Shown here piece by piece: positions 4,701 to 31,152 of a DNA stretch of 35,575 nucleotides. The position numbers and the translations under genes were made by a program. The DNA is from a virus: IMG/VR virus record IMGVR_UViG_3300029448_000139, positions 1-35,575 of that record; one strand, given 5' to 3'. Numbering within the stretch: position 1 is the first letter of the stretch; each line of letters begins with the position of its first letter. Under the pieces are notes generated by a model. That model was not told where the DNA came from and made no database searches. It worked only from the letters and a program-made list of their open reading frames with translations.

Positions 4701-7700
4701 TTTGCTTAGACTTTTTCTTACCCTGCATAATTGCAAGAACTTCTTTAGCTCTTTTATAATTTTTTTCATCTGTATATTCTTCGTAAAAACCCTCTATACG
4801 ACTTATAGGTGTTTTCTTTTTACCTGTTGCTATTTCATATGCGGTAAAATGAGATTGGCTTTTAAACACAGGATTTTTTAATCTAATGCTAGGAACATAA
4901 GACATAGCACGACCAGTAGATTTAGCATTTAGCTTACCTTCGTGTAAAGTAACAGCAAATACACCAGTTTCTTTATAGGTAGGAATATCTAAACGAGCAG
5001 AAATTTGATCTCCATCTTTTATTTCTACATCACCTACACCAGTAATATTAGCATTATTAATACCTATTTTATCTAAAAACGATTTACTTCTACCTGCGGC
5101 TCTCATAGCACTTTTTATAATGCCTGTATCAATTCTGTCTGGTAGTTCTGTGTATGGTTCAAATGGGTCTTCTTGCATTACTATTTCAGCATATTGATCT
5201 GGCGTTATTTCACCTCTTACTAACTGTAAAGCGGCTTCTATAATTTTTGGTTTTCTTTCATATTCTTGTTTTTCAAATTCTGGAAGTCTTATAGGGTCAG
5301 TAATACGAAGCTCTGCCGCAAAACTAGATTCAATAAGTTTCTTTTGTACTTGTGATCCTTTGTAAGTAAGAAGGCTTTTACCTAATTGATTTATTATTCT
5401 ATTAAAGTATTTTTCTGCATTGTATTTTACAGGCTTACCATCTTCATCAGTACCCTCAAACTCTGGTATTACTTGTGTAGCATCGAGAGTATCCTCAAGC
5501 ATTAACACTTCTATTGTATCACCTTTTTCAGCTTCTAAATGGTATGCATACGCATCGTGATAATTATCGCTATTAGGATCAGTTTCAACAACTTTAGGTA
5601 ATCCAGAAAGTTTAATAACATTTACAATTTCACCTCTAGCAACTTTTTGTAAATCTGGATCAGCTAATAATTTTGCAAAATAAGGATGATCTCCAATAGA
5701 TGGGTATTTAACATTTCTACCCATTCCTAATATTGTTGTAATAAAATCTTTTCTTTTAGCAAATGATAACTCTCTTACAATTAACGAAACTTGAAATACA
5801 GCTTCTTCTACAGTTTCTTGTTGTACTGCTTCTTCAACAGCAGGTAATAACTCTCTTACACTTTCTTTATCGAAAGCCTCTATAGCCTCTTTTTGAAACT
5901 TTTCTAAAGTTAATTCACCTTGTTCTATAGCTGTTTCAAAATGACTAACAACTGCTCTTAATACACTATTGTTTGATAGGTGTGCATCTTCTCCCATAAT
6001 AATAGGAGTTAGATAATAAAACCCATCAGCAGTATTACCATTTTCGTCTTCTTGTAATTTTAATTGATCTACTATTTTTTGAGCCGCTTCTTCTGTTGAA
6101 GCCGCCCAAGCATAACCAGTTATTGTCGGATAATAAATACCACCAAAAAACTTTTCTTCTCCATAAGCACCGCCTGCTAATCTGTCAGCCATTATTGTAC
6201 TAACAACTTTTCCGTCTAAAGTTTCAGGATTAACATTTGTAGTTATCTTTACATTTGGATTCGGTTCTAGTCGTTTAAAGTCTTCTTTTCTAAAAATACT
6301 TTTACGAACTATACCTTTTGAAGCACGCAACACACGCTTACCAAATTTACCACGCACTCTTTCTAAGATTTGTGCTTTAGTTCCGTATGATGGTACACCA
6401 AGTTCTTTTGCACGAGCTATTAAATCTTTTTTGCTTAATGTTTCTATATCTGGCCGCAACACATCTAGGTCACGATCTTGTATTTCTATACCTTCAGATA
6501 AAGCTACAGACAGATTATTTAAAAAGTTAATTACCTGTTTATCTCTTTTAGGTATACCTTTGCGTGTTTTAAATCCTAAATTAAAGATTGCATCTGAATA
6601 ATCAGATAGCCCAAGCATCTCAATTAAACGCTCAAGAAACTTAATAATTATGTTCTTTTCAGTTTGCGGTAAGGCCTGATAGTTGCGAGATAATATCTCA
6701 ACCATTTTTGCTAATGACTCTTCGCCTTTATAACTTTCATTTTTGTAGTTTTCTAAATGTATATTAAGTTCTTCTAATGCTTCTTTTTCTAAATATGGTT
6801 TTACACGCTCTGATATTTCAAATAATCGCTCTTCGATGTTAGATATATCTAAAGAGTTAACTAAAGCATGAAACGCTTCATGTGCTACTGTTTCTGACCG
6901 TGCTATTTCAGAGTTAATATGAATAACTTTTTCGCCGTCTACTTCACCAATAAACAAGCCGTCTGCACTTTTTTGTCTTGTAGCCTTTTCAAATTGCTCT
7001 GTATTTTCATGTGTAATAATTTTTACATTAGGAGCTACTTGAGCTAATGCTTTTGTTACATTAACTGATATATTATTTATACCTTCTACACGAACTATTT
7101 TTTCTTGTTCAGTTTCAGTTTCTGCATCAAGATCAAAATTTTGTCCATATGTTTCCATTAAATCAATAAGTAAAATACGAGCTTCTTCTATAGAGATGCC
7201 ACGAATATTAGCTATTTCTTCTACTTCGTTTACAGCAAGTTCACCTGCAAGAATTTGTTCTCGCTGTTCATCTGATAACGAAAACGGTTGAGAATCTGCT
7301 TCTGATCGCTCTTCTACTGTTTGTGTAGGTTTAAACCTTGCGTCTACTAAATTAAACGCTTTAAGAAACTTGTCATAATCAATATCACGAGCATCTTGCA
7401 TTATTTGGTTGTATTCTGCTTGTGCTTCTTTATCGCCATTTACAGCACGAGTAAACACATCTACAAGCTCTTCCATATCTTTAGGCAACTGGTACAAAGG
7501 TACATCAATTAACTCTTGTAACTCCGCATCAGTCATTGTTTCACGAAGTTGTTTAAAATCTTCTTCTGTTAAAAGACCTAATTTAGAATATGGCATATTA
7601 GGGATTTGATACTCAGCCGCAAGATCAGATAAATCCATTGCTATTTTACGGCGTATTTCCATATTTTTTTCAAAATCTGTTTCTTCTTCTAATTGTGTCG

Positions 7701-9705
7701 CATAATCTCTAGCTTTTGTTCTATCCATATTTGCGTTTGCTAATGTTTCTGTTGCTAGCTTTATACGCAAATTTTTAAGACTGTTATCAATTTGAGTTTG
7801 CACTTCTGTTTGTAGTTCTTCAGCTAATGATGCAGATTCAGTTTCAAGCTCAGAATCAGTTAGCATTTTAGCAAGAGCTTCTACATTAAAATCTACTAAC
7901 AGTTCATTAGGCAAGTCAGGGTTAATCTGATCTCGTGTTCTGTTTACATATGATTGAAGTATTACTTTATTAAAGTCGAATAAGGCCGCATTTGTTTCTT
8001 TTTTATTTCTAGCATTTGCAAGTGCTTCAGCAATTCTTTTAGCTTCAGATTCTTCTACACCCTGATCTACAAGTTGCATAGATTTAACCTGAACCATAGC
8101 CGCTTTTTGTTTATCTTTGCCAAGAATGCCGTGTTTTTCTATAGCAAGTTCAAGAGCCTTTTCGTCTGTAAATCTTTTTTTCTGCGTAAGATACTCTCGT
8201 TCTCGCTGTATTGACTGGTATTCACGATTTGACTGAACTAAATCTACTACAGTGCCACCTGCTCCCATAAACAAAACTGCATATTTAGATTCATCAAATG
8301 CTTCTTTACCTCTAGCAAATGCTTCTTTAAAATCTGATTTTAAAAATTCTTTAAATGTTTCAATAACTGCTTCTTTTTCTGGGTCAGCTTTTTGTGCTAA
8401 TTCTACAGTAGTAGTTTTGATCCATTCTTGTACGCCTTCTTCTAAACGCTCACCATAATAATTTGCTATTGTTGTGTAACCTACACGAGCCAATACGGCT
8501 TTTTTACCGTATTTTTTAAATGTTTTCATAGCGACATCACGAGACAACTTCCTAACAATGCTACCACCCAATGCAGATACTGGAATAGCGGCAAAAGCAA
8601 ATTCTGTTAAAGCATACGGAATAGATGCTATATTACTAATTTTATTTATTTCACTAAGTTCATTTGGGTTTATTTCGGTAAGTTTTCGATTACCAATAAC
8701 TTCTTGTTTTATTTCTCCCCCCGCAAAATTTGCCCAATAACCAACATTTAAAACCCTACCTAATTTCTTTTTATCTTTAGTTAAACCCGCTATTAATAAA
8801 TGTTCTAACATTGGAACAGCCGTTCCTACGCCTTCTTTTAATCCTCGCTCATACCAACTTTTTTCACGATAATCAAATGCTGGACCTACCATATCACTAA
8901 GTTCATCATATTCAGCTTTTAATTTATCAGCTTCTTCTAAACGATTTGCATTAACTAATGCATTATACTGTTGATTAAAATTAACACTAGTATAACCCCA
9001 TTGTGCGGATTGTGCCGTTGTCCCAGAACCACGAATCATTTCTCCATTTAGCTTGCGTCTACCTACTAAATCATTGCGAATATCTTTTTTAATTTGTTCG
9101 ACACCCATTAGTTTTCGAATAGGGCTAGTACCAAAATAATCAGCCGCAAAACTACTTGCTGATGCCCATTTTTTTTGTATTTGACGATTAATAAATTGAT
9201 TTTCTTTTTGTTGTGTAGTTAACCTTCTAGCTTTAAATGCAGGCTCTTGATCAGGGTTACGCATAATAAATCGTTCTTCAGGACTAACCATCCATTCATC
9301 AGATTCAGGCGTATAAGACATTTTAGCTTTAGTAACAAATGCACCATAGTTAACATCTTCGTCTTTTTCTAAACCCATTTCTTGCCGAATTATTATATCA
9401 GTCATTACACCACTAATATCTTTTTGATATTTAGAACTAAGAAACTGATCAGCTATAAATTTATATTCGTCTTCTTCTGTAGTAAAATCGTTATATAATT
9501 TTAACTCTTCTTTTGGTAAATTTTTGCGAGGGTCGTAGTTAAGAATAGCATTAGGCTTAAAAGCTACAGGAGGCTCAACAAGCATCTGTTGTTTATCATC
9601 ATCAAATGCACCGCTAAATCTACGGTAAGAAGCCATTTGACCCTTCCATTGATCTTTAGGTACTCCACGATTATTTAGAGTTTCTAAAAAAGTTTGTCTA
9701 TCCAT
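1732..9705 (-). CDS. Giant internal virion / polyvalent protein with HExxH and SAP motifs (2657 aa)
   Basis: Occupies more than a fifth of the window. Visible parts: a helical N-terminus; a zinc-metallopeptidase-like HEAFH at residues 942-946; a SAP-like DNA-binding helix pair at about 1088-1120 (LSKKDLIARAKELGVPSYG); a segment around 1670 (WIQVGFNPFRFGYFFDRETG) of the kind seen in large polyvalent phage and plasmid proteins; Lys/Glu-rich coiled coils at about 1850-1900 and 2110-2260; and a conserved-looking C-terminal region from about 2275 with hydrophobic runs (about 2475-2498). Position after the other internal proteins matches T7 gp16, but a peptidase-like motif replaces the transglycosylase. 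It is probably carried in the capsid and ejected with DNA. The start overlaps the previous stop in TAATG. Family assignment is from motif memory. Confidence 0.8.
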   Translation of the reverse strand: MDRQTFLETLNNRGVPKDQWKGQMASYRRFSGAFDDDKQQMLVEPPVAFKPNAILNYDPRKNLPKEELKLYNDFTTEEDEYKFIADQFLSSKYQKDISGVMTDIIIRQEMGLEKDEDVNYGAFVTKAKMSYTPESDEWMVSPEERFIMRNPDQEPAFKARRLTTQQKENQFINRQIQKKWASASSFAADYFGTSPIRKLMGVEQIKKDIRNDLVGRRKLNGEMIRGSGTTAQSAQWGYTSVNFNQQYNALVNANRLEEADKLKAEYDELSDMVGPAFDYREKSWYERGLKEGVGTAVPMLEHLLIAGLTKDKKKLGRVLNVGYWANFAGGEIKQEVIGNRKLTEINPNELSEINKISNIASIPYALTEFAFAAIPVSALGGSIVRKLSRDVAMKTFKKYGKKAVLARVGYTTIANYYGERLEEGVQEWIKTTTVELAQKADPEKEAVIETFKEFLKSDFKEAFARGKEAFDESKYAVLFMGAGGTVVDLVQSNREYQSIQREREYLTQKKRFTDEKALELAIEKHGILGKDKQKAAMVQVKSMQLVDQGVEESEAKRIAEALANARNKKETNAALFDFNKVILQSYVNRTRDQINPDLPNELLVDFNVEALAKMLTDSELETESASLAEELQTEVQTQIDNSLKNLRIKLATETLANANMDRTKARDYATQLEEETDFEKNMEIRRKIAMDLSDLAAEYQIPNMPYSKLGLLTEEDFKQLRETMTDAELQELIDVPLYQLPKDMEELVDVFTRAVNGDKEAQAEYNQIMQDARDIDYDKFLKAFNLVDARFKPTQTVEERSEADSQPFSLSDEQREQILAGELAVNEVEEIANIRGISIEEARILLIDLMETYGQNFDLDAETETEQEKIVRVEGINNISVNVTKALAQVAPNVKIITHENTEQFEKATRQKSADGLFIGEVDGEKVIHINSEIARSETVAHEAFHALVNSLDISNIEERLFEISERVKPYLEKEALEELNIHLENYKNESYKGEESLAKMVEILSRNYQALPQTEKNIIIKFLERLIEMLGLSDYSDAIFNLGFKTRKGIPKRDKQVINFLNNLSVALSEGIEIQDRDLDVLRPDIETLSKKDLIARAKELGVPSYGTKAQILERVRGKFGKRVLRASKGIVRKSIFRKEDFKRLEPNPNVKITTNVNPETLDGKVVSTIMADRLAGGAYGEEKFFGGIYYPTITGYAWAASTEEAAQKIVDQLKLQEDENGNTADGFYYLTPIIMGEDAHLSNNSVLRAVVSHFETAIEQGELTLEKFQKEAIEAFDKESVRELLPAVEEAVQQETVEEAVFQVSLIVRELSFAKRKDFITTILGMGRNVKYPSIGDHPYFAKLLADPDLQKVARGEIVNVIKLSGLPKVVETDPNSDNYHDAYAYHLEAEKGDTIEVLMLEDTLDATQVIPEFEGTDEDGKPVKYNAEKYFNRIINQLGKSLLTYKGSQVQKKLIESSFAAELRITDPIRLPEFEKQEYERKPKIIEAALQLVRGEITPDQYAEIVMQEDPFEPYTELPDRIDTGIIKSAMRAAGRSKSFLDKIGINNANITGVGDVEIKDGDQISARLDIPTYKETGVFAVTLHEGKLNAKSTGRAMSYVPSIRLKNPVFKSQSHFTAYEIATGKKKTPISRIEGFYEEYTDEKNYKRAKEVLAIMQGKKKSKQKWIQVGFNPFRFGYFFDRETGQPVLSGSEAIQVGNVVFVKDPVYGDRSDPEFSIAKTSKEVEKALAAGIPDPQQVRFAKSREQIPEDVADIIKGLVSKIKEQPLMDSDILAERASTTSLTKADINKTREAYFIDGEAQNEVQHFESVVQRIQQSYTSDGANQLVKSNLSRLRTDKKVYMNPDHVFILALRKDELEREIMTVSREVEEAQANGATLTESNKLQELDNKLADLENLLTVAQSMTSQFARGLRFAQLSQTKLNIYALPRVLESARKQKGSELTKEERQDLTEYAKEIAKLNEEIDFINKTISEAEEQDLRKSSEEFISTTNKKFVNKAKRDKVKIIRERNEYLKIIKNMGFVVNEDSSTVRLSKVDQAEYTPEMRKAVADLARTFVEEGVTDLDDLISKIRTHLPEKSEYDIMNILSNRTPAKVKQVENANKTKLVELKKQARFRAEIKDLLDGVIKQKKLLKPDSAEVSKLKAQLKELRQEILNSDDVKADAIYDRIRRIEEGIEQAVSPRTNKKEESARLQQARQDLRELQRISKIDDQIKELQAQLKLSAKDLVETKKPKKEPKPIRNKELEQKIMERAALQAQLRDRIFNMQEKTFGYWYREIAGVPRALLATADMSYLLRQGLIVSAGHPILAAKSFGKAFQAFFSKGNARLFDENLRNMDLHPSRMYYGLELSTMDGALTEREESFATTLLQKIVGVREIVSASERHMVTGLNHLRTGLFDDFISKHPEASEEAKFAYARYVNVATGRGELGQFNGAAIALSQAFFSPRFAVSRIQAPAYAITNMVKQPELRGEMARQWLALAGTASAVLALAAANGADVGDDPEDSDFGKFVIGNRRYDIFGGLVQPIRLLMLMIKKNDSEYFQLIYDEKVKKDVRNEMFKFVEYKFNPILSLSHKLLFKEDPFTHKDIVWSEDWKEQAWSFAPIVAQSLKDSYDQEYNSIETASVFIPEFLGVGVGVYEKRSKTKKKPKTPKYY

Positions 9706-11498
9706 TATTGTATTCCAAATCTACCGCTACGGTTACGAGATTCTTCAGCCTTGCGTTTTCTTTCTTGTTTAGCAATTCTAACTGCTTCAGCATCTTTTTC
9801 TTGTTGCGTTTTAGGTTTAGGTACTTTTGTAATTTTTGTTGATACAGATTTAGGTGGTTTGGATTTTAGTAAATCAGGAACTTCTCCAAATCCTTCAATT
9901 AATTCGTCATCTTCTTGATACATTTGTCCACTAGTAGCTTCAAATACTGGAGCCATTAAAATTCTTTGCGTTTGTTCTCTTTGCTCTTGTTCACGTTTGT
10001 AATAATCGTTTCTAACCTGTTGAGCTACTTTTATTCCATATATAGACATTGCTTTATCTACAGCATCCATAATATCATCTTCATAAGAATAAAATTTTTC
10101 TTTGCCAGTTTTAGGGTCTTTAATAACACTTATTAGTGCATTATCACGAATGTTATCTAAAAATTCATTTACTTGTGTAAAAACATCAGCAAAACCTTCT
10201 ATTTGTCGTGTAGCAGAAAGCCCTTGTATTTTAGAAAACTGCTCTCTCATTAATCTAAGTGTTTTTATTTCAATGTCATTATAAGTATTTGGTTTTGCAT
10301 CTTTTAAAAATATACCATTTCTTTCTTCATCTGCCATAAGATTCATTAATGGTGCCAATATTTTAGCCTTAAGTGCAGGTGTAAAGAATGCTTCTCCTGT
10401 AGATTCACTTGTGCTATTAGCTAAATCAAAAACAATTTTTAAATCAGCAGTAAAGTCTTTTGTATCAGCCTTCATTAAGTCATCAACTCTTTTTGCTAAC
10501 TCGTCTGATAAATATGTAGTAGATTTTAATCCAAGACCTAATTGATTTCCGTTAGGAGCTATAACTTTGTCTGCATTAGGATTGAAAAATGTATCTTGTT
10601 TCATAGGAGCTTCTTTAGTTTTTAACGCTCCTCTATAATAATCTTTATTACTTTCCGTCATCGAAGATTTCTCAATCCAATCTTCTGTCAGTTCGTTATC
10701 TTTTAATAACTTATCTGCTGTTTTTTGTGCAGGTGATGCTTTAGTTGATAAAAATGATTTTTCAGAAGAAGCAACTCGTAGTCTTAAACTATTACGGCTA
10801 GAAAAACTTAAGTTATCATCGTTTTCAAAAGCCGTTACTACCTCTTGTATTTCTTCCATACTATTAGCTGTTTGCATTTTATATGCGTAATAATCATGAA
10901 ACCCAACAGACATAGCTGTGCGTTCTTCTTCTGGATCTAAACCAATAGATTTAATTAATGCACGGCCTTCTTCAATTTGATCAGACTTAAACAACTCTTG
11001 TGCAAGCTCCATAGTATCGGCTTTAAATTGTTCTTGTTGTATTTTGTTTACAGAAATAATTTCTTTACGCTTTAAACCTTCTTTATCTAACTCCCATTCA
11101 TCACGCAAATCTTGAGTAATATTAACATTATTTTCTTTAGCCCAATTTTCAAACGCATTATCAAGATATGGATTTATTTTTAACCCATATATACCACTAG
11201 CGTCCATTCCTTCAGAAGCACCTCTTGTTTTTAGTTCATCCATTTGCTCAGGAAGTTCTCTTGTTTTCCATAAAGCAAATTTATGTTTGCCAGATTTTAT
11301 ATCTTGTTCTTTTTTAGTTTCTAAATACTCTTGGCCTGCACCAATAGTTTCTTCCATTATATTAAACATACCTTTAGTAAGAACTTGATCTGCGGCTGAT
11401 TCAGCTCCTGCTAAGTTAACGGCTACAGATGGGTTTATAGATACACCTTTGGCTGTTCCTATACTAGATTGTTGTTGATATAAAGGTATTTTTGGCAT
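9705..11498 (-). CDS. Putative internal virion protein (597 aa)
   Basis: 597 aa, strongly helical and charged, starting MPKIPLYQQQSSIGTAKGVS and ending in a basic tail (KRKAEESRNRSGRFG). There is no signal peptide, no enzyme motif and no Cys pattern. It lies between a gp14-like protein and the giant internal protein and is coupled to the latter by a TAATG overlap. This is the slot that T7-like phages give to internal core proteins (gp15), and the long helical make-up agrees. An AGGAAA ribosome site precedes the ATG. Function is inferred from order and composition only. Confidence 0.7.
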   Translation of the reverse strand: MPKIPLYQQQSSIGTAKGVSINPSVAVNLAGAESAADQVLTKGMFNIMEETIGAGQEYLETKKEQDIKSGKHKFALWKTRELPEQMDELKTRGASEGMDASGIYGLKINPYLDNAFENWAKENNVNITQDLRDEWELDKEGLKRKEIISVNKIQQEQFKADTMELAQELFKSDQIEEGRALIKSIGLDPEEERTAMSVGFHDYYAYKMQTANSMEEIQEVVTAFENDDNLSFSSRNSLRLRVASSEKSFLSTKASPAQKTADKLLKDNELTEDWIEKSSMTESNKDYYRGALKTKEAPMKQDTFFNPNADKVIAPNGNQLGLGLKSTTYLSDELAKRVDDLMKADTKDFTADLKIVFDLANSTSESTGEAFFTPALKAKILAPLMNLMADEERNGIFLKDAKPNTYNDIEIKTLRLMREQFSKIQGLSATRQIEGFADVFTQVNEFLDNIRDNALISVIKDPKTGKEKFYSYEDDIMDAVDKAMSIYGIKVAQQVRNDYYKREQEQREQTQRILMAPVFEATSGQMYQEDDELIEGFGEVPDLLKSKPPKSVSTKITKVPKPKTQQEKDAEAVRIAKQERKRKAEESRNRSGRFGIQ

Positions 11499-11507
11499 AA
11501 CAATTTC

Positions 11508-12071
11508 CTACTGTAAAAGCGATTTAAAACCAAGTTTTTGGATTCCTGCACCTAAAGTTCCTGTTTCAGTTGCTCCTTTAATATTGCCTAATGCTCCACC
11601 AAATCCACCTACCGCCCCTGCTATTCCTCCAAGCAATGATGCACGAGCCGCCGCTTTGCCTTCCGCAATAGCTGTTTGTGCTTGCATTTCTCCTTCGTAG
11701 CGACCTGTTTTAGCTTGTTGTTTAAGGTTTTGTTCTTGCAACAAACGATTACGGCGTTGGTTTTGAATGTCTATTTCCATTTCAGTAGCTTGTTCTAACA
11801 TTACGGCCATAGGAGTTCCAGAGCTTACGGCTCCTGTTTTAGAATATGCGGCACGTTGTGAGGCCATTTGTCGGCGTTTAGACTTATAAGCACGAGTAGT
11901 TTCAGCACCCATTGTCTTACGAACAGACCGTGCCTCCATTTCTTTAACTTTAGCATTATAGTCAGCCATTTGACGGATAGCTCTAGCTTTGCGTTTAGCC
12001 TCTTTTTTAGCACTACTGCTACCCATTATACCAGATGCCAAACTCATTGCTCCTGTAACTATTTGCAACAT
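11508..12071 (-). CDS. Putative internal virion protein, gp14-like (187 aa)
   Basis: Start chosen at 12071 (MLQIVTGAMSLASG) rather than the upstream in-frame start at 12113, because it makes a TAATG overlap with the preceding stop and has a GGAGGGAG ribosome site. A hydrophobic N-terminal helix (about residues 1-20) is followed by a Lys/Arg/Glu/Gln-rich helical body and a Gly/Ala-rich segment near 145-165 (LLGGIAGAVGGFGGALG). This is the architecture of small internal virion proteins of T7-like phages that insert in the host membrane during DNA ejection. Assignment rests on architecture and gene order. Confidence 0.65.
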   Translation of the reverse strand: MLQIVTGAMSLASGIMGSSSAKKEAKRKARAIRQMADYNAKVKEMEARSVRKTMGAETTRAYKSKRRQMASQRAAYSKTGAVSSGTPMAVMLEQATEMEIDIQNQRRNRLLQEQNLKQQAKTGRYEGEMQAQTAIAEGKAAARASLLGGIAGAVGGFGGALGNIKGATETGTLGAGIQKLGFKSLLQ

Positions 12072-14569
12072 TACACTCCCTCCACATCTACTACCATTGC
12101 TAGTACAGTACAAGGCTGTGGCGTATCTGATACTATATAAACAGTTTGCAAAAACTCATTATGATTAGCAAGCCAAACTTCTGCATCTTCTGTATTTAAT
12201 GAGCTAGAACTAGCAAATTTAACATTATCTGTACCTGTTTCTTTTTGCCCAACCTTAGCTTCTAGTGTGTCTTTAAATCGTATAGTAGCATGAGGTATAG
12301 ATTTTTTAGAACCCATACTTCCTTCTGCATCTACATACAAGGGTGCAAGTGTAGATGTGTACGGCAATCCTACATAAACAGTAGCATTAGACGGAGTAGA
12401 TGCTAATGTAATAGCACCGCTACTAACTATTTTTGTTTCTACAACTCCATTAACTTTAGCTGTAACAGATTTGCCTTCTAAATGTTCTAAACCACTTACA
12501 GTCTGACTAGAATGATTTGTGTATTTTTTATACAAATCTAAACCAGAATATTCTGTAGTATAATTTGTACCCCATTCATAATTATTAAATTTTACAATAT
12601 TGCGATTAGTATTATTAGAATTTTTTATAGACAAATAAACAGAATCTTCACTAGTTTTATTGGGTAAAACGGCAACAGATTCTACTTTATTAATAATTAC
12701 TTCTGAAACCCAATTAGGACTAGTGTTATTAATAATACTAGCGTTGTTGCTTCCTGCGGTATCAGTTACCGTAGTTCCACTTCCAGTATTAAATAAGTAA
12801 TTAAATTTAGTAGAGCTACCTACTTTTAAAACTAAACTATTTAAATCTAAATCTAATGTGTCAGTAGGGTTTCCATCTGGAAACAGAGACTCATCGCCAT
12901 TATAAGGACTTTGATAACTTCTAGCATTTCCTATTAAAAAATTATAATTAGCTTGATTAGCGTGTTGAAATGTAGTTCCTGAAAAATCAAAACTTAAATT
13001 CGATGTAGACGTTGTAGAAACTCCATCTATAGTAGCTGTTATATTGTTAGTAGTACTTGTTGGGTCAACGGTTATATGTAATGTATGCCATTGATTATCA
13101 GTAAAATCATTATTAAATTGTAGTATTTTATTATATGTTATAGAAGTTCCGTTAGTGTCTCTGCCAAGAATTAAATAAAATTCATTTGTCGCATTTGCTC
13201 TAATATCAATTTCAAAAGAACCTGCTTGATTTACCAACCATTCTCTTTCAGTACTACTTTGTCTTAGTTTAAAATTTAAAGTAAAATCAATAGTTGCATT
13301 ATTTTGAAAATTAACATGAGGTGCATCTACATAATCGTTTGCACCATCTAAAGAAAGATAGTTTACAGTTTCATTAAATGTATGACGATGCCAAGCAAAC
13401 ACTTCAGTTTCACGTTCATATGTTAAACCAATTAAATCTCCATTATTACTAACAAGCCATACTATATTATAAGGTTCAGTTTGTAATGCCATTTGAATAA
13501 AACCATATTGAGTTATATGATTAGCAATTAAAGATAATTCATTTCCTAAATAATCGTTTTCATTTCCTTGCAAAAACCATTCTCTTAATTTAGTTCCTTG
13601 TCTTTGTAAAAATAATATAGCTGAATTACTTAAAACCGCTTGTACATCATTAGAACCATATTTTGATCTTCGTTTAAAACTTAATTGGGTAGGAGTAAGA
13701 CTTGTTTCAGAATTGCCAGAACTTAATGTCCATTCATTATTAGATGTTCCAATAACTAGTTCTCTTTGAGGACAAAACCATTGTATATCTTCTGCTTCAG
13801 ATGAATTAATCTCTAACTTTAATGCGTCTGTATCTAAAGAACCTAATTGAAAATCATCAAATTCATTTGTTTTACTTAAAAAGACAACATTAGGATTTTT
13901 TTTATTTCCACCTAAAACCAATCTATTTTCATATATTGAAATAGAATTTGGATATCCATTTTCATCATTAAATGCCTCAAAAGCCCATTTATAACTTGAA
14001 GGTGATGTTTCTATAAAAGCACCTTCATTTAACTGAAGCTGAAATACATCTGACGTTTGACCTGTATAATCTTTAGCAACCTGATAAAAACCAGTTTTTT
14101 GTTGATAGGTTAATTGATAAAATTTTAAATCTGATCTTACTAAATAAATAGTACCATCTATTAAAAATAAACTAATCCATGTAGTGTTAACTAATGATAA
14201 ATCTGTTAAATCTATTTCTTGAATTAAGTCTGGTGTATTTGTTACTGGATTAGCAGGCATATCATTTGATGAACCTCTTGTAGCATCATAATGTCCATCA
14301 CTACTAGAATAACCTGCCGCACTATAAATTAAAAGTTTTCTTCGAGAACTATTTAACAAATACATAGTTCCGTCTAATCCTTCAATATGAGTAATTCCTA
14401 AAGGAGTTCCGTTTTGATAAACTACATTTGCATTTGTTAAAAATGGAGTATGAAAGCCTTCTGTTTGCCAAATAGTATCCGAACTACCTTCAAAAGCTGT
14501 TTGAGAACTCGTTCCCTCATAGCCAAAAATAGTGCTTCCATATAATTTTTTTTGTGATTGTACAGTCAT
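12071..14569 (-). CDS. Tail nozzle / tail tubular protein B-like, with an inserted LamG domain (832 aa)
   Basis: The first ~400 residues match the middle of the T7 gp12-type nozzle family: a repeated beta-propeller-like rhythm, GYPNSISIYENRLVLGG, then FDDFQLG, REWF and a FAWHRHTF end. Residues about 400-626 are a separate LamG/concanavalin-like module, opening YLSLDGANDYVDAP and containing NQWHTLHITVD. After it the nozzle family resumes with VESVAVLPN..EDSVYLSIK and the Ig-like VSGLEHLEGKSVTAKVNG and VGLPY motifs. The tail tip therefore carries a carbohydrate-binding-type domain inside the nozzle chain. The stop overlaps the next ATG, and the start is 2 nt after the previous gene. The nozzle assignment is firm by motif; glycan binding is inferred. 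Confidence 0.8.
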   Translation of the reverse strand: MTVQSQKKLYGSTIFGYEGTSSQTAFEGSSDTIWQTEGFHTPFLTNANVVYQNGTPLGITHIEGLDGTMYLLNSSRRKLLIYSAAGYSSSDGHYDATRGSSNDMPANPVTNTPDLIQEIDLTDLSLVNTTWISLFLIDGTIYLVRSDLKFYQLTYQQKTGFYQVAKDYTGQTSDVFQLQLNEGAFIETSPSSYKWAFEAFNDENGYPNSISIYENRLVLGGNKKNPNVVFLSKTNEFDDFQLGSLDTDALKLEINSSEAEDIQWFCPQRELVIGTSNNEWTLSSGNSETSLTPTQLSFKRRSKYGSNDVQAVLSNSAILFLQRQGTKLREWFLQGNENDYLGNELSLIANHITQYGFIQMALQTEPYNIVWLVSNNGDLIGLTYERETEVFAWHRHTFNETVNYLSLDGANDYVDAPHVNFQNNATIDFTLNFKLRQSSTEREWLVNQAGSFEIDIRANATNEFYLILGRDTNGTSITYNKILQFNNDFTDNQWHTLHITVDPTSTTNNITATIDGVSTTSTSNLSFDFSGTTFQHANQANYNFLIGNARSYQSPYNGDESLFPDGNPTDTLDLDLNSLVLKVGSSTKFNYLFNTGSGTTVTDTAGSNNASIINNTSPNWVSEVIINKVESVAVLPNKTSEDSVYLSIKNSNNTNRNIVKFNNYEWGTNYTTEYSGLDLYKKYTNHSSQTVSGLEHLEGKSVTAKVNGVVETKIVSSGAITLASTPSNATVYVGLPYTSTLAPLYVDAEGSMGSKKSIPHATIRFKDTLEAKVGQKETGTDNVKFASSSSLNTEDAEVWLANHNEFLQTVYIVSDTPQPCTVLAMVVDVEGV

Positions 14570-14571
14570 AA

Positions 14572-16476
14572 TTAAAATCCAGTAAAAGAAGGAATAGGTT
14601 CAACTACTGTATATTCAAATTCATTTTGAACACAAGCAGTAACAGTTAATCCTAAAAATAATTCTCTATCGTGATAATTAATACCGTTATCAAGACTAGT
14701 TAAAGTAGTTCTTCCTTTTCCTATACAACAATGAATTCCTGCTGATCCACCAAAAGAAGTTGTAGCTACAAAATCATTTAAATCTGCTCCAAATTCACCA
14801 GTTCCCAAAGGTGTACCTATATTTCCTCCTGATTGAACTTGATAAGCTACCCACCCTATTCTACCTCCAAAAGCATTTTGTTCTAAAGTCCACTTTCCTC
14901 CTTCATTAGATGTGTCACTATTTAAAATTGGATATGCTTCAGTATCATTTTTAGCATAAAGAATTATTAAATTTTCAAGATCGCTTTGACCACTAATATT
15001 TGGTCTATAACTAACCATTCCTAATATTTTATTAGCATTAGCAAATTCATAACCAGATTGAGCTATAACAGAATTTCCTCCTCCACTTTGACTAGGATTT
15101 GATTCAGCACTATACTTAGGCACTCCTCCAAATGTTAAATCTGGATTGGGGTCAGTTAATATATTTGCAAATAGGCCGTGATATGTAAATTCATAACTAG
15201 CATTTGGATCAAAAAGAAATCTATGAATTTTTCCACTTTTGCTTATTCCATAAAGTAAGTTTTCTTGTCTTGAATAATCAAATCTGACTATATTAGCAAT
15301 ATCGGATTCATCATCTGATCCTCCAGTTGCAATGGATTTTTGATAATCTGCTGATGTAGTAGAAAGAGTAAAAGTATTTGCAGTTGCATTAACTTGATTT
15401 AAAACAAAAAATTTATCACCTTTAATAAAATTAGTAGCAGAAGAATTATATTGAGTCCAGTCTTTATATTGTGTAACAGAATCAGGAAATTTTGCATCTG
15501 TAAAACATTCTGTCTCATTAGCCGAAGTCCTAGAATTTACAGTAACAATGTTATCTATTTCTGTTTTGTTAACTTTTAAAGTTATATGACAACCGTCAGA
15601 ATTAAGAGTACCATCAATATATCTAACTCTAATAAAAGTATTTACATCTTCAGGTTCTGTTGAACTAAATGTAAAGTTTTGAATATCAGTTGTTGATACA
15701 ACAGTTGACGTATCACCTAAAACAAAAAAGTTTTCAAAAGTAGCACCATTATCTAAACTTCTTTGAACTATTACTTTTCCTGACCATCTTCCAGTTGTTT
15801 CTACAAAAAATGTATTAGAAGAACAATTTATTGCGTCAGTTACCCCACTTATTCCGTCAAATCTTTTATTAACAGATAATTCTTCTGGAGGTATTTTAGT
15901 AACTATTTTTAATTTTGAGTTAACATGAGTTGTTTTAAATTCTCCATTACTAGAATTTATTTTCATAAATCCAGTATCGTGATTATTAATCATTTCTGAA
16001 TTTTTATTTGTGTTTAAATCTTCAAAAGGAGGATATTCAAAAACAAAGTTACCAAATGTAAAGGTATTTTCTGCTGTTCTTTTTAAAAGAGTTACAGGAA
16101 AATCTGGATGAGCAATAATAAAATCATTACCTTTTTGAACATATTTAAAATCAAATAATTTAGCTTCTGTATATAAAGTAGTAAATGTATATAAAACTGT
16201 TCCGTCAGTTTTTATTACTCTTAATTTTAAATTAGTAAATTCTAATAAATAATTTTCAGAAACAGAACGTATAAAAGGTTCTATCCTAGCTTTATTATTA
16301 GATTCAGTTGATTTAAAAAATTCACTAGCAGGTCTTTTAGAGACTCCTCCTTGTTTCAAAGGAATAAAATTTTCCATTTTAAAACAAGATTTATCATATA
16401 CACTACTATCAGTTCTTGCATGAACATCAGGTGAAACTTCACCTCCATTGAAAGCATTAATAACTTTTTTAGCCAT
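14572..16476 (-). CDS. Tail nozzle N-terminal-domain protein (634 aa)
   Basis: Begins MAKKVINAFNGGEVSPDVHA and continues with ENFIPLKQGGVSKRP and RIEPFIRSVSENYLLEFTN, the opening signature of the tail tubular B / nozzle family (compare the GG..S and KRPP start of T7 gp12). The middle (about 170-370) is a beta-rich insert. The last part (AGIHCCIGKGRTTLTSL) is unlike the usual C-terminus, and the central nozzle domain instead appears in the following 832-aa gene. The two proteins probably assemble together below the tail tubular A ring. Locally very AT-rich. Confidence 0.75.
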   Translation of the reverse strand: MAKKVINAFNGGEVSPDVHARTDSSVYDKSCFKMENFIPLKQGGVSKRPASEFFKSTESNNKARIEPFIRSVSENYLLEFTNLKLRVIKTDGTVLYTFTTLYTEAKLFDFKYVQKGNDFIIAHPDFPVTLLKRTAENTFTFGNFVFEYPPFEDLNTNKNSEMINNHDTGFMKINSSNGEFKTTHVNSKLKIVTKIPPEELSVNKRFDGISGVTDAINCSSNTFFVETTGRWSGKVIVQRSLDNGATFENFFVLGDTSTVVSTTDIQNFTFSSTEPEDVNTFIRVRYIDGTLNSDGCHITLKVNKTEIDNIVTVNSRTSANETECFTDAKFPDSVTQYKDWTQYNSSATNFIKGDKFFVLNQVNATANTFTLSTTSADYQKSIATGGSDDESDIANIVRFDYSRQENLLYGISKSGKIHRFLFDPNASYEFTYHGLFANILTDPNPDLTFGGVPKYSAESNPSQSGGGNSVIAQSGYEFANANKILGMVSYRPNISGQSDLENLIILYAKNDTEAYPILNSDTSNEGGKWTLEQNAFGGRIGWVAYQVQSGGNIGTPLGTGEFGADLNDFVATTSFGGSAGIHCCIGKGRTTLTSLDNGINYHDRELFLGLTVTACVQNEFEYTVVEPIPSFTGF

Positions 16477-16484
16477 AATGCCTC

Positions 16485-17420
16485 CTAACTAAAACTACCA
16501 TATGATGTCTGGGAAAACGGTGGGTATGAGTTGCTGTATGATGAACCAGATGTGTATGTAGCTTCTAACCACTCGCTGTCAACCGTAGGCGACTCACGCT
16601 TCTCAAATGCGTTAATACGCCGTGCCTCTGGCATTATAACTCGGTTAAACTCTTCCATTAAACTTAACGACAAACTGCGGTCACCTGTCACTGGTACAGC
16701 TAATCTGGCCGCTAGCAATGTAATAAATGCCTGTGCAAACAAAGAATCCATTGCCGCAGGTGTTGGTTCTTTTTCATAACACATCCAAAGATTTTCAAAA
16801 TTTGACAATATTTTATTATCTTCAATATTATAATCTACTACTGGTTTCCCGTACTCATATACTTCATCAGAGTTAGTAACATATGTAGCACGAATATAAT
16901 CAGTAGGCAGTGTGTGAATATGTTTAAATTGAAATAACGGAACATCTTTGACTAAAGTAGCACCAGTAAATGTGTATTCATAAGGACGTTTAAGATTAGT
17001 TATGTCTGTTTCTATTGCAGATGATACATTAGGTGCACCATCAGTTCCGTCAAGAAAAGTCCAAAGTACAGTGTTTGGTGCAGGTGTTTCAATAATAAAA
17101 TCAGCACTAGTATTTGTTATATGAACCCATTTTTCGTTTACAGTTCCTATATTAGAAACATTTTCAGGGATATAAAAACCGTTAGAGTCAACAGCATTAC
17201 CAGTCAATCCAGACACAGTAAAACCAGTTGCTAATTTAGCTCTTGCTTTACAACAATTCCATTTGTGCATACGAGTTAACTCTTCAAGAGTTGGTGTGTA
17301 ATGCAAATCAACTTGATCTTTAATGACGCCTGTGTCTGTGTCAAAATTAGATAACAAAACTCTTTCGCTACCTAACCTTGACAAAGCTAAATTACATAAC
17401 TTTGTTTTTGTTAAAGACAT
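16485..17420 (-). CDS. Tail tubular protein A (T7 gp11-like), copy 3, with insertion (311 aa)
   Basis: Has the family landmarks shared with its two upstream neighbours: LALSRLGSERV near the start, then MHKWNCC (residues 51-57), LPTDYIRA, and a C-terminal MDSLFAQAFITLLAARLAVPVTG with PEARR. In T7 this protein forms the ring between portal and nozzle. Unlike the other two copies it carries an extra ~95 residues (about 65-160) between WNCC and LPTDYIR, which is beta-rich and includes FLDGTDGAPN. The start overlaps the previous stop as TAATG. The C-terminus is Ser/Tyr/Gly-rich. Confidence 0.8.
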   Translation of the reverse strand: MSLTKTKLCNLALSRLGSERVLLSNFDTDTGVIKDQVDLHYTPTLEELTRMHKWNCCKARAKLATGFTVSGLTGNAVDSNGFYIPENVSNIGTVNEKWVHITNTSADFIIETPAPNTVLWTFLDGTDGAPNVSSAIETDITNLKRPYEYTFTGATLVKDVPLFQFKHIHTLPTDYIRATYVTNSDEVYEYGKPVVDYNIEDNKILSNFENLWMCYEKEPTPAAMDSLFAQAFITLLAARLAVPVTGDRSLSLSLMEEFNRVIMPEARRINAFEKRESPTVDSEWLEATYTSGSSYSNSYPPFSQTSYGSFS

Positions 17421-18094
17421 TATACTTTACTAAACGCTTTATATGTGAACGGACTCATTGGGGTTTCAAGATAAGACTCATCAACCGCAGGCTCGTTAAC
17501 GCCTTCCATTGTGTTAGCACGGCGTGCTTCAGGAAGAAGTTTTTCATAAAAATATTTTAATAATTCAAATTTTCTATTTACATCTCCTGCTACTGGTACA
17601 GCTAGCTTAGATGCTAACAAAGTTCTTAAACAAGAAACATACATCATATCCATGTCAGCTTCATCTGGCACATCTAAATACTGTGCATAAATATTAGTTG
17701 CATTAATATCTGTTTGAATGTTTTTCACTGTTGCAGAACTATTTACTGCTGTTGTAACAGCAAAATCAATTTTAGGTTTTACTGTTTCTTTACTATTAAC
17801 TTTACTAATGTAAATAATACGGTGAGCATCAGCAGGATAATTATAATCGTGAGCAAAAGAAAGAGCGGCATCCGCACCATCGCCCTCACTAAGTGACACA
17901 CGATGTAAACAACAATTCCAAGCGTGCATACGAGTTAATTCTTGAGCCGCAGGATCATAATGAAGCAACGCTTGTTCCGCTATTGAACCTGTGTCATTTA
18001 TTGCAGATAACTGTACTCTTTCACTTCCTATTAAAGAAAGTGCTTGATTAATAATATTTAATTTAGTTAAACCTGTTTTAGTAGTTTGACCCAT
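17420..18094 (-). CDS. Tail tubular protein A (T7 gp11-like), copy 2 (224 aa)
   Basis: Second of three adjacent paralogues. Shared landmarks are ALSLIGSERVQLS, a TGSIAEQALLHYDP helix, MHAWNCC, MDMMYVSCLRTLLASKLAVPVAG and LLPEARRANTMEG. The length is close to the usual ~200 aa of the T7 gp11 family. It lies 2 nt after copy 1 and overlaps copy 3 by one base. It probably forms part of the head-tail adaptor ring. Whether the three proteins make mixed or stacked rings cannot be told from sequence. Confidence 0.8.
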   Translation of the reverse strand: MGQTTKTGLTKLNIINQALSLIGSERVQLSAINDTGSIAEQALLHYDPAAQELTRMHAWNCCLHRVSLSEGDGADAALSFAHDYNYPADAHRIIYISKVNSKETVKPKIDFAVTTAVNSSATVKNIQTDINATNIYAQYLDVPDEADMDMMYVSCLRTLLASKLAVPVAGDVNRKFELLKYFYEKLLPEARRANTMEGVNEPAVDESYLETPMSPFTYKAFSKV

Positions 18095-26884: not shown

Positions 26885-27145
26885 ATGACAGACGCAACGA
26901 TACACCAAGTACGAATCAGCGGTAACGACTACCATATCCGCTACGACCGCATCTGTGCTAATGCAACAGGTAAAGCGGTGGCGAAGATTCACTACTACCA
27001 CGACAAGCATATGCAAGATGAGATCAGAGAGATCGAGATGATCGACGGCTCATTCATCATGTACCATCAGTTGAACGACTTCAATGAGTTGATTCAAGTG
27101 TGGAATGATCACGTAATATCACATAAACTAGAAGGAGCAAAATAA
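26885..27145 (+). CDS. First early protein, unknown (86 aa)
   Basis: 86 aa: an N-terminal beta-like part (ATIHQVRISGNDYHIRYDRI) and a helical end with His/Tyr-rich KIHYYHDKHMQDEIREIEM. No enzyme or DNA-binding motif is evident. It is the first gene after the rightward promoter and is coupled to the next by TAATG. First-expressed phage proteins often redirect host functions, but nothing in the sequence names a target. Confidence 0.65.
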   Translation: MTDATIHQVRISGNDYHIRYDRICANATGKAVAKIHYYHDKHMQDEIREIEMIDGSFIMYHQLNDFNELIQVWNDHVISHKLEGAK

Positions 27146-27357
27146 TGGAACGATCAGAAATGTTAAAATCAATCAGAGATAGAAGAGAGCGAGATCAAAA
27201 GATCGCATCAATACAGGAATTTATTGATGACACCTACAAGCAAATGGAAACATCACCTAAAGATGGCATTGCAGGAACAATCGTCAAATCTCATTTGGTT
27301 ATGAGGGGATGGATTAAACAAGCTGAGGAGCAGGTCAAACAGTTGAGAGGATGGTAG
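27145..27357 (+). CDS. Small helical early protein, unknown (70 aa)
   Basis: Highly charged and helical (MLKSIRDRRERDQKIASIQE; ending QAEEQVKQLRGW). The start overlaps the previous stop, and the stop codon is followed with no gap by a hammerhead-like RNA element. Coiled-coil-like heptads are possible. No family recognised. Confidence 0.65.
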   Translation: MERSEMLKSIRDRRERDQKIASIQEFIDDTYKQMETSPKDGIAGTIVKSHLVMRGWIKQAEEQVKQLRGW

Positions 27358-27408
27358 CCTAACCGATGACGCCTAGTGAGGCAGAAACCGCAGGGATGCG
27401 GTCTTAGG
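27358..27408 (+). ncRNA. Hammerhead-like ribozyme, type I topology, with core deviations
   Basis: Three stems meet as in a hammerhead. Open stem I is CCTAA (27358-27362) with TTAGG (27404-27408). Stem II is GCCT/AGGC with loop AGTG (27371-27382). Stem III is ACCGC/GCGGT with loop AGGGAT (27387-27402). Core strands are CCGATGA (consensus CTGATGA), GAA before stem III, and the cleavage triplet GTC ending at 27403. Deviations are C for U at position 4 and a C-A mismatch at the 10.1/11.1 pair, so activity may be weak. Cleavage would fall 25 nt before the next ATG. Confidence 0.68.
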
Positions 27409-27428
27409 ATAAACAAAGGGATAATGAT

Positions 27429-27641
27429 ATGGGACACCCAAACAAAAAGTACTCGGTCAGATTGACTGAGAATCAAATCCGAATCTTGAAAGACAGGATG
27501 GAGTTGGCAATCCTCAACCATGATCCAGAGTGGTTGGATGGTGAGCAGAAGAGGGAAGATATGATCTACCTCGCCATTATGAACAACGCTGATAAGGCGT
27601 TAGGTGGCAAGGGTGATTATCAACGCAACTTATTTTATTAA
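27429..27641 (+). CDS. Small early protein, unknown (70 aa)
   Basis: MGHPNKKYSVRLTENQIRILKD opens with a strand-helix arrangement reminiscent of ribbon-helix-helix or HTH repressors, followed by a longer helical part (PEWLDGEQKREDMIYLAIMNN). The resemblance is weak. It lies between the two hammerhead elements, so if both cut it sits on a short processed RNA together with the next gene. The ribosome site AAAGGGATAAT precedes the ATG. Confidence 0.65.
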   Translation: MGHPNKKYSVRLTENQIRILKDRMELAILNHDPEWLDGEQKREDMIYLAIMNNADKALGGKGDYQRNLFY

Positions 27642-27658
27642 ACAAAAGGAGAAATAAA

Positions 27659-28069
27659 ATGGAAGTAAAAACAGTAGAGCAAGGATTAAAATTAATGGCG
27701 GAGATGGGTTACAAGTATGTTCCCTCTGGCTGTTGCTTGGAGGATAGATTGAAAAATGTAAAGAAAGGCGTAGGGTATTTTGAACACGTCGTATTGATAG
27801 AAGAAATGGAACCTTCGGTAGCACATCATTTCCCTTGTGCTATCCTTTTTAACGGATTGCCGTTCGATGATTTCATTCGAGAGCAGTCCAAAGAGGAAAC
27901 CGAATTGAGAGAAAAGAGTAAAATTGATCACTATATGATCTTTGAGGGCAAAGGGAGAAATCAAATGCATACGGGAACATATGAATACGAAACGGCATTA
28001 TATATATATAACAATAGCAAAAAGGAAGGTATTGCAGTTTCTATGGAACCCGCAATTCGACGGGATTAA
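27659..28069 (+). CDS. Early protein, unknown (136 aa)
   Basis: 136 aa with a folded-looking mix: MEVKTVEQGLKLMAEMGYKY, SGCCLEDRLKNVKKGVGYF, VAHHFPCAILFNGLPFDDFI, ending VSMEPAIRRD. It has several Cys and His but no regular metal motif. A strong AAAAGGAGAAATAAA ribosome cassette precedes the ATG. The stop is followed after six bases by the type II hammerhead. No family recognised. Confidence 0.65.
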   Translation: MEVKTVEQGLKLMAEMGYKYVPSGCCLEDRLKNVKKGVGYFEHVVLIEEMEPSVAHHFPCAILFNGLPFDDFIREQSKEETELREKSKIDHYMIFEGKGRNQMHTGTYEYETALYIYNNSKKEGIAVSMEPAIRRD

Positions 28070-28075
28070 TTCATA

Positions 28076-28132
28076 AATCGAAACGGGGTTCGCCCCGTCT
28101 GTCTAGTGTGGTTGCTAGGCACTGATGAGATT
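28076..28132 (+). ncRNA. Hammerhead ribozyme, type II topology, complete consensus core
   Basis: Stem II is open: AATC (28076-28079) with GATT (28129-28132), including the consensus C-G closing pair. GAA (28080-28082) leads into stem III, ACGGGG-TTCG-CCCCGT (28083-28098), then C17 at 28099, so the cleavage triplet is GTC. Stem I is TGTCTAG (28100-28106) with CTAGGCA (28115-28121), seven pairs with one G-U, loop TGTGGTTG. The core strand CTGATGA (28122-28128) is perfect. Every conserved core base of the hammerhead is present. Self-cleavage is predicted between 28099 and 28100. It lies just after the stop of the 136-aa gene. Chance occurrence of all parts is very unlikely. Confidence 0.92.
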
Positions 28133-28182
28133 CCCAAATCTTAGATGCAACACCAATTTAAATTAAACAAAAGGAGAATAAC

Positions 28183-28632
28183 ATGACAGAAACAGAGACA
28201 GTAGAAGTGCCGTGGAACAGCAACAGAGTGTACACAGTCGACTATTATCATATGAAGCATGACAAAGAGAGCCGTACATGGGAGCTTGATACAGAATGGG
28301 GTCTCAGTACAAGTAACGTTGGTGTCGGGTTGGATTTACCCGATAACGATGTTGATGAATGGAGTGACGAGTGGGTTCGATTTGATGAGACCATCTACGA
28401 ATACTTCGATGACTTCAGCGACCTTCAGAAGTGTTGGGATAAAAAATTTGGCATGAAGGATGGTCATGATATCAAAATCGTCAACGTCTACATGAGCAAA
28501 GAACAACTGTTCACGCATTACGCACCGATGATGAATTTCGAGTATGACCCAGACCAACTGCTCGAGCTTGCCCTTAAGAGAGGGTTTGTAACAGAGACGG
28601 ACAACGGATACAAAATCAACAACGACTACTAG
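28183..28632 (+). CDS. Acidic early protein, unknown (149 aa)
   Basis: Strongly acidic, rich in Asp, Glu, Trp and Tyr (LPDNDVDEWSDEWVRFDETI; EYFDDFSDLQKCWDKKF), with a more ordered C-terminal half (IKIVNVYMSKEQLFTHYAPM). Such acidic small proteins are common among phage early genes and include DNA mimics, but there is no specific evidence for that here. An AAAAGGAGAATAAC ribosome cassette precedes the ATG. No family recognised. Confidence 0.65.
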   Translation: MTETETVEVPWNSNRVYTVDYYHMKHDKESRTWELDTEWGLSTSNVGVGLDLPDNDVDEWSDEWVRFDETIYEYFDDFSDLQKCWDKKFGMKDGHDIKIVNVYMSKEQLFTHYAPMMNFEYDPDQLLELALKRGFVTETDNGYKINNDY

Positions 28633-28640
28633 CATGGCAA

Positions 28641-28657
28641 GGCGGGTCGCTCCCGCC
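28641..28657 (+). other. GC-rich intergenic hairpin without T-tract
   Basis: GGCGGG-TCGCT-CCCGCC, six perfect pairs, lies just after a stop codon and before the next ribosome site. It lacks a following T run, so it is more likely a message-stabilising or RNA-processing hairpin than a terminator. Confidence 0.55.
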
Positions 28658-28683: not shown

Positions 28684-29034
28684 ATGATACAGGAAAAATC
28701 ACCGCTTGAAGCGGTACAGGGTATGCTCGTATGGGTGTACGATTGCAGTCTCGGCAACTCAAGCAATGGCGGTCTATCGTCATATTGTCAGACGCTGGAG
28801 ATCGGCAAAGACATCGAGTTGGTGGAAGGTCATAGGGGCGGTTGCATCGCCAGACCGATTGGCGACCCACCGAAGGGTCATATCGGATGGATGGCAGGAG
28901 GATGCTACATATCAACATCCGATGGTCGGTTCAGTCGAGCGGTTGAGCATATATGTGGGCATCACTTTTATGGTGCAGTTCCATTGCATGACCGCAGTGA
29001 GACTCAAGAGATGTACGATTCAATGTGGAATTAA
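28684..29034 (+). CDS. Early protein, unknown (116 aa)
   Basis: Gly/Ser/Cys/His-rich: GMLVWVYDCSLGNSSNGGLS, HRGGCIARPIGDPPKGHIGW, AVEHICGHHFYGAVPLHDR. The scattered Cys and His might bind a metal, but no standard spacing is seen. A CAAAGGAGAATAAA cassette precedes the ATG. A longer overlapping frame (from 28706) is not preferred; only its last part, from 29045, is a gene. No family recognised. Confidence 0.6.
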   Translation: MIQEKSPLEAVQGMLVWVYDCSLGNSSNGGLSSYCQTLEIGKDIELVEGHRGGCIARPIGDPPKGHIGWMAGGCYISTSDGRFSRAVEHICGHHFYGAVPLHDRSETQEMYDSMWN

Positions 29035-30213: not shown

Positions 30214-31152
30214 ATGTTATTAAAACTAGTAGGAGTTACATTCGCCACCAACAACAATCCAGAGCTGAAGAAGCTACGCCCTAGTGGCGTGGTCAGCTTT
30301 GAGGCAGAGCCAGACAACGAGTACGACCCGAAAGCCGTCAAGGTCATGTACAAGGGCGACCAGATAGGTTATGTACCGAAGTCGGAGTTGGCACAAGAGA
30401 CTGCTCTACAGGCAGGCACAGCTAAGATCATCGACTACGCATACTATGACCCAGACCTGCGATGGAACGAGAGTCATGTAGGTCAGTTTCAATCAATGAC
30501 TTACGACATCGAGGAGCAGATCGAGGAAGGCTCGAATCGAATCATCGGTGGCAGGTACGTCAGATGCACTACATTCCTAAAGTACTTCGATACTGCAGGC
30601 GGTGCGGAGGGTTTGATCAGATGGGCGTTCAGTCAAGGCACTACCTTTGAGGAGTATGAGGAGGCGTTGAATGAATGTGCCGAGAATGGCACGCTTATGC
30701 ACGATGAGATCGAGGGTTACTTCAAGACAGGTGAGTTCACCGAGGGTAGAAAATATTTGCCAGAGGGTTGGGATAACTTTGTCAACAAGTACGAGCCAGA
30801 GATGATCTATGGCGAGGAGCGGTTCTACGACAACAACCTAATGGTCACAGGGCAACCCGACTTTGTCGGATACATTAGCTACAAAGGTCGGCGTGTTCGT
30901 GCCGTAGTGGACTGGAAAAGTTCTAAACGGCCTTCACTGAAACACAAGATACAGGCTAGTATCTACTCCATGAACGCATCATTGGACGAACAACCCATCG
31001 AGGTTGCAATGGTTGTGGCATTCGGGGCTAGTACCAAGCAGGGATTCAGTGTAGCGGTAGTTGAGCGTGAGCAAATCGAGTCAAACTACCTCGCAATGGA
31101 GTATCTCAGCAAAGCTATGGAGTGTGTGGGGGTGAAGGCAGATGAGTACTAA
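30214..31152 (+). CDS. HIRAN domain fused to PD-(D/E)XK (Cas4/RecB-type) nuclease (312 aa)
   Basis: Residues 1 to about 65 match the HIRAN domain (VGVTFATNNNPELKKLRPSG; VSFEAEPDNEYDPKAVKVMY; GDQIGYVPK), which in eukaryotic HLTF binds 3' ends of DNA. The C-terminal half is a PD-(D/E)XK nuclease of the RecB/Cas4/phage exonuclease kind: H163 in GTLMHDEIEGYF, D216 in GQPDFVG, D233 and K235 in VVDWKSSKR, then an HKIQASIYSM helix (motif QxxxY). It likely processes or resects DNA ends in replication or recombination. It is first of the replication block and overlaps the initiator-like gene by 11 nt. Confidence 0.8.
   Translation: MLLKLVGVTFATNNNPELKKLRPSGVVSFEAEPDNEYDPKAVKVMYKGDQIGYVPKSELAQETALQAGTAKIIDYAYYDPDLRWNESHVGQFQSMTYDIEEQIEEGSNRIIGGRYVRCTTFLKYFDTAGGAEGLIRWAFSQGTTFEEYEEALNECAENGTLMHDEIEGYFKTGEFTEGRKYLPEGWDNFVNKYEPEMIYGEERFYDNNLMVTGQPDFVGYISYKGRRVRAVVDWKSSKRPSLKHKIQASIYSMNASLDEQPIEVAMVVAFGASTKQGFSVAVVEREQIESNYLAMEYLSKAMECVGVKADEY

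Follow-up and report, generated by a model that had tools for sequence, protein, structure and literature searches.

In bacteriophage T7, early mRNA contains RNase III sites at which a host protein cuts, leaving 5'-phosphate and 3'-OH ends. Type II hammerhead ribozymes clustered around phage genes have been known since 2011, and the idea that they process transcripts into single-gene mRNAs dates from the same work (PMC3088659). The arrays tested there were described as tandem or triple, and tandem phage arrays cut in vitro and, in one case, in E. coli (PMC3088659). A related element, HHphage of haloviruses HF1 and HF2, lies 13 nt upstream of the start codon of an early gene, with a mapped 5' end within three nt of the cut (PMC3088659). 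The type II copy analyzed here is a further instance of this arrangement; to it we add a second, variant ribozyme, mixed type I and type II punctuation in related phages, an operon with 24 copies and a rule for the distance from stop codon to cut.

The window, that is, the whole stretch of 35,575 nucleotides, comprises positions 1-35575 of a 37,508-base IMG/VR record (G000) of a marine phage. On its + strand, positions 28076-28132 form a real type II hammerhead, and the sequence-only reading had placed its three stems (4, 6 and 7 pairs) and its GAA, CTGATGA and GTC elements at the right coordinates. Stem II (28076-28079/28129-28132, 4 pairs) is open and is followed by GAAA (28080-28083); stem III (28083-28088/28093-28098, 6 pairs) is closed by a UUCG loop and followed by the GUC triplet, and the predicted cut is 3' of C28099, between 28099 and 28100. 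Stem I (28100-28106/28115-28121, 7 pairs), also closed, leads into the CUGAUGA core segment (28122-28128), and an A-U pair stands beside the UH cleavage site. The covariance-model search suggested by the earlier reading was passed, because Rfam Hammerhead_II (RF02276) matched positions 28076-28139 with 47.6 bits (E 6.3e-7) against a gathering cut-off of 37 bits, and this was the sole Rfam family matching in the window. When both strands were scanned with a strict type II descriptor, exactly one site was found, compared with 2 matches in total in 200 mononucleotide shuffles of one strand (~0.01 per strand).

The motif had also been called a full-consensus ribozyme. This holds for the core, which is perfect, but not for the pseudoknot between loop I and the 3' tail that belongs to the type II consensus (PMC3088659): in the window only 3 bp can form, between UGG (28109-28111) and CCA (28134-28136) of the tail (28133-28139). 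The pseudoknot has 4 bp in relatives L145 and L144b, and at least four pairs in 66 of 135 pattern matches, so that a pseudoknot of this length is a majority feature and neither universal nor a requirement for type II membership. In one tested example, its shortening lowered the rate 20- to over 100-fold, and of the 18 consensus hammerheads assayed in vitro in 2011, 4 failed to cut (PMC3088659). The tail change that shortens the pseudoknot also creates GAUU-CCCA-AAUC, which allows 28126-28132 to pair with 28137-28143 and would thereby make stem II and the last part of the core unavailable. In partition function calculations, this competing hairpin (28126-28143) had a probability of 0.96-0.99 in the window compared with 0-0.33 in relatives. 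We regard it as a warning rather than a refutation, because the energy model omits tertiary contacts (stem II pairing was low even for the relatives) and the hairpin is completed 11 nt after the ribozyme. Self-cleavage after 28099 is therefore predicted with less certainty than the perfect core suggests, and given the 3-bp pseudoknot and the competing hairpin, the window copy may be slower. As the two pairings of 28129-28132 are mutually exclusive, the hairpin could also act as a regulated switch in which transcription speed or a factor gates cleavage according to conditions. We give this reading a very slight chance, since the hairpin is weak or absent in relatives and Rfam indicated no ligand-binding RNA family near the ribozyme.

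A second ribozyme, which the sequence-only reading had missed, is held by a repeated intergenic block at 27355-27410. This type I hammerhead (27358-27408, + strand, predicted cut after 27403) has stem I open and stems II and III closed: stem I (CCUAA/UUAGG) follows directly 3' of the stop codon UAG, and stem II (GCC/GGC), GAAA and stem III (ACCGC/GCGGU) complete the fold. With nine copies taken from other phage contigs we built a covariance model (R1), which matched the window ribozyme with 50.4 bits (E 1.5e-10), compared with 58-69 bits for the full-consensus type I copies of relatives, although part of the R1 score is stem I sequence because the nine source copies had been retrieved with the stem I letters fixed. 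Even with a loose threshold, Rfam did not detect the window copy, and the relatives' type I copies matched Rfam type I families only far under the cut-off. Where the consensus has U4 and G-C at 10.1/11.1, the window copy carries U4C and, closing stem II, a C.A mismatch; consequently, we describe it as a variant-core homologue, for which activity can be claimed less strongly than for the type II copy. The 10.1/11.1 pair is the most conserved after A15.1-U16.1, with U.U as an exception, and a viroid ribozyme with U4C was weak in vitro and sufficient in vivo (cited in PMC3088659). Among 57 type I copies retrieved by one pattern, U4C occurred in 4. A non-canonical 10.1/11.1 pair was seen in 14 of the 57 (A.A in 6, C.A in 4, U.C in 3 and A.C in 1) with the other stems intact, and A.A, C.A or U.C recurs in L151, L153, L157, L158, L186, L195 and others.

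The imperfections of both copies raise the possibility that the type II copy is decaying or inactive, having been acquired with the upstream gene and losing function here, as its type I companion would be. The 3-bp pseudoknot, the window-specific competing hairpin, the variant core of the type I copy and an RF02276 score below those of relatives (47.6 vs 52-60 bits) are all consistent with such decay. However, the type II copy has an intact core and three intact stems and is completed before the competing hairpin, and L123 keeps a similar variant type I copy (U4C with A.A at 10.1/11.1) with intact stems. We thus consider decay unlikely, while favoring a type II copy that still cuts. The two imperfect copies offer a natural test of which core or pseudoknot changes are tolerable in a working copy.

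Both ribozymes lie at gene junctions on the + strand. The type I copy is abutted by the stop TAG (27355-27357) of a 70-aa gene (27145-27357), which is 80% identical in L122, and another 70-aa gene (27429-27641) follows. Upstream of the type II copy is a 136-aa gene (27659-28069) with the stop TAA at 28067-28069; downstream are a ribosome-binding site, AAAGGAG (28170-28176), and a 149-aa gene (28183-28632), for which no relative was found among viral contigs, PHROGs or Pfam. The stop-to-cut distance is 30 nt for the type II copy and 46 nt for the type I copy. The next junction carries a plain hairpin (28641-28657); in relatives the same place is taken by a type I ribozyme (L127, L123) or a type II ribozyme (L049). 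This right arm on the + strand also encodes a replication-initiation-like protein and a DnaB-like helicase, and the left arm on the - strand holds the structural genes; we call the transcript early from this layout, that is, from its place in the rightward replication-gene arm. No DNA similar to the window was found among annotated phages, and the portal and helicase have only distant relatives in database phages, at about 27-29% identity. Other features of the genome include a 2657-aa reading frame (1732-9705, - strand) that lies at the end of the structural-gene arm and matches no PHROG, and a protein (30214-31152, + strand) that combines an N-terminal HIRAN domain with an exonuclease-like region. 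Just beyond the window, a glutamine riboswitch aptamer (RF01739, 48.5 bits) lies at 35628-35679 of the record (- strand; L143:2129-2180), and it likewise occurs in L122, L123, L128 and L129.

We compared the ribozymes with those of 17 related contigs found via the helicase gene. Hammerhead_II matched above the cut-off three times in L122 (record G001) and once in L129 (G008). With a descriptor for all three permutations, the closest relative, G001, was found to contain seven hammerheads within 2.2 kb (L144:6491-8690), four of type II and three of type I, between early genes, and every hammerhead found in the group was on the + (coding) strand. In near-family type II stems, 93.6% of cells were paired compared with 77.3% after shuffling, two-sided cells numbered 48 compared with 12.7, and covariation was 0.435 compared with 0.119. 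When the partner was shifted by one base, pairing fell to about 34%. Since most rows had been found with the core and stem II letters fixed, stem II is uninformative and stem I informative in this comparison. The same count for type I copies, the rows of which were chosen as well-formed, gave a covariation of 0.496 compared with 0.122. The compensatory stem changes that the earlier reading had proposed to look for in related phages are thus present. That reading had also held that homologues with a broken core would count against the ribozyme; one such copy exists (L144:8628-8682, equivalent to L122:2648 in G001), with core CUGAUAA through G8A and C3 kept, but L209 has the same version of stem I with an intact core. 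The copy at L144:8628-8682 is probably inactive, as judged from its core. In L122, reading frames at 1615-2019 and 2370-2648 begin inside a type I ribozyme (MSRRRRNR...), with SD-preceded starts further downstream, and frames of this kind could be mis-annotated as gene starts.

Hammerheads had been described as sporadic in phages, and this did not hold: a scan of viral contigs using core-adjacent letters only yielded at least 120 loci, and they are in fact common. In the 135 placements among the matches listed, nearly all free stem pairs formed, with varied pair types, and the pattern did not demand these pairs. Perfect-core hammerheads numbered 274 unique copies in 2 Mb of fetched loci, compared with 0 in the reversed sequences. 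We then asked where the ribozymes lie relative to genes. A longest-ORF gene caller was dropped because it produced spurious antisense genes, and a stop/start test with random and antisense controls was used instead. For 195 type II copies away from contig ends, a stop codon ending an ORF was located between 8 nt inside and 40 nt before stem II in 171 (random 18%), and in 151 this stop was combined with an SD-preceded start after the ribozyme (random 7%, antisense 7%). The commonest stop offsets were -1 and 0, which places the stop directly against stem II or overlapping it. In cellular genomes, examined as a separate set, the counts were 109/118 for the stop and 104/118 for the stop and SD-start (random 23% and 12%), with a mode of 0. 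Hundreds of other copies accordingly follow the placement noted from the window itself, with a stop codon before the ribozyme and a ribosome site after it. The type II copy of the window exemplifies a general pattern among phages, with type I and type II hammerheads occupying the junctions between genes.

The predicted cut lies about 20-50 nt past the stop for types I and II, with stop-to-cut medians over all sets of 27 nt (type II), 44.5 nt (type I) and 28 nt (type III, n=21). Of 458 cuts in types I and II, 6 lay between 10 nt upstream and 20 nt downstream of the stop end, a range over which the controls were uniform (133 of 721). Type III ribozymes, which cut near their 5' end, do not abut the stop as types I and II do but follow it at a median of 22 nt, in a small sample (n=21). 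The simplest reading, with the small type III sample in mind, would be that cutting stays clear of the terminating ribosome's footprint. We also considered whether permutations leaving a 3' hairpin are preferred; in a sample retrieved by the stem II hairpin common to types I and III, and so limited to these two types, type III copies (28) were common beside those of type I (89), and no such preference was shown.

The longest array was observed in a 57,338-base record, G026, in which 24 type II hammerheads lie on one strand of one 7.6-kb operon (9932-17520; L146 = G026:7000-20000). The copies are mostly 100-380 nt apart, roughly one per small gene, and most have a stop abutting stem II and an SD sequence right after the tail. 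Arrays of 10, 8, 7 and 6 were present in other records. In our literature search, conducted mostly outside subscription journals, we found no report of such array sizes or of the stop-codon placement.

We next examined how the genes on either side of the ribozymes vary. The window is 91% identical to L129/L145 over 27656-28140, which contains the 136-aa gene and the ribozyme together, and is then unrelated until 28691. The window type I copy and L144_7586 have a common upstream gene and a different downstream gene; conversely, L144_7287 and L211 have a common downstream side (133 nt, to the contig end) and different upstream genes. The gene downstream of the type II copy in L049 is also that downstream of the type I copies in L176 and L193, and is a relative of window 28684-29034, which is preceded by the plain hairpin in the window and by no ribozyme in L128, L129 and L131. 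As the same junction can carry type I, type II, a hairpin or nothing, the ribozymes are optional and interchangeable, and neighboring genes change independently on either side of them. These observations would also fit a DNA-level exchange joint, in which the patch is kept mainly as a short homology for cassette recombination and cleavage matters little: similarity to L129 ends at the 3' end of the ribozyme, and upstream and downstream genes vary independently around near-identical ribozymes. Homology alone, however, would keep neither RNA pairs by two-sided changes nor the stop-to-cut distance. We therefore see a slim chance for recombination as the main role, although both roles can coexist.

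Taken together, we think it likely that the type II hammerhead acts in cis on the rightward polycistronic transcript of the phage and cuts it after nt 28099. Cutting would take place while the transcript is being made and would divide the messages of the 136-aa and 149-aa genes from each other. The stem III hairpin would form the flush end of the upstream product, with a 2',3'-cyclic phosphate. A 5'-OH and the stem I hairpin would stand at the start of the downstream product, which would keep an intact ribosome site. In bacterial mRNA decay, products that lack a 5'-phosphate and have hairpins at their ends should be degraded more slowly by 5'-phosphate-dependent RNase E and 3' exonucleases. 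Catalysis and the effect on mRNA processing and lifetime are what we infer from these features, with the end chemistry taken from the known class. Two stable adjacent hairpins might instead serve as a terminator-like or stabilizing pair without catalysis; this has hardly any chance in our view, given the conserved catalytic core and the covariation, and the terminator reading was rejected because no terminator-like site is present at the ribozyme.

Beyond this locus, hammerheads acting as gene punctuation probably cut one long message into single-gene messages. We suggest tentatively, and stop just short of favoring, a broader possibility: that in many phages interchangeable hammerheads of types I and II, set between the stop and the following ribosome site, take the place of protein-dependent mRNA processing, cutting at least about 20 nt past the stop so that the terminating ribosome clears the cut end, with the ribozymes marking the boundaries of single-gene cassette exchange. 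The spacing rule, the 24-copy operon and the swaps among type I, type II and hairpin turn the 2011 proposal that such ribozymes may process phage mRNA into specific testable predictions, and they suggest why the ribozymes spread with gene cassettes.

Among known systems, the T7 RNase III sites are similar in that an early polycistronic transcript would be cut between genes with hairpins at the product ends; here, however, the RNA itself would cut, leaving 5'-OH and cyclic phosphate ends. HHphage differs from the window copy in its archaeal host and in a variant core proposed to need high salt. Hammerhead_HH9 (RF02275) and RAGATH-1-hammerhead (RF03152) have an architecture like that of the type I copies in the window and its relatives, which differ from them in the short CCUAA/UUAGG stem I beside the stop and, in the window copy, in U4C and C.A at 10.1/11.1. 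The closest likeness of the type II copy is to Hammerhead_II (RF02276; PMC3088659), with which it shares the core, three stems, an open stem II, clusters at phage genes and the proposed single-gene mRNA processing. The window copy departs from it in the pseudoknot cut to 3 bp, and what goes beyond its 2011 description is the abutment to stop codons, the rule for the stop-to-cut distance, the operon of 24 copies and the operons that mix types I and II, with exchange of genes.
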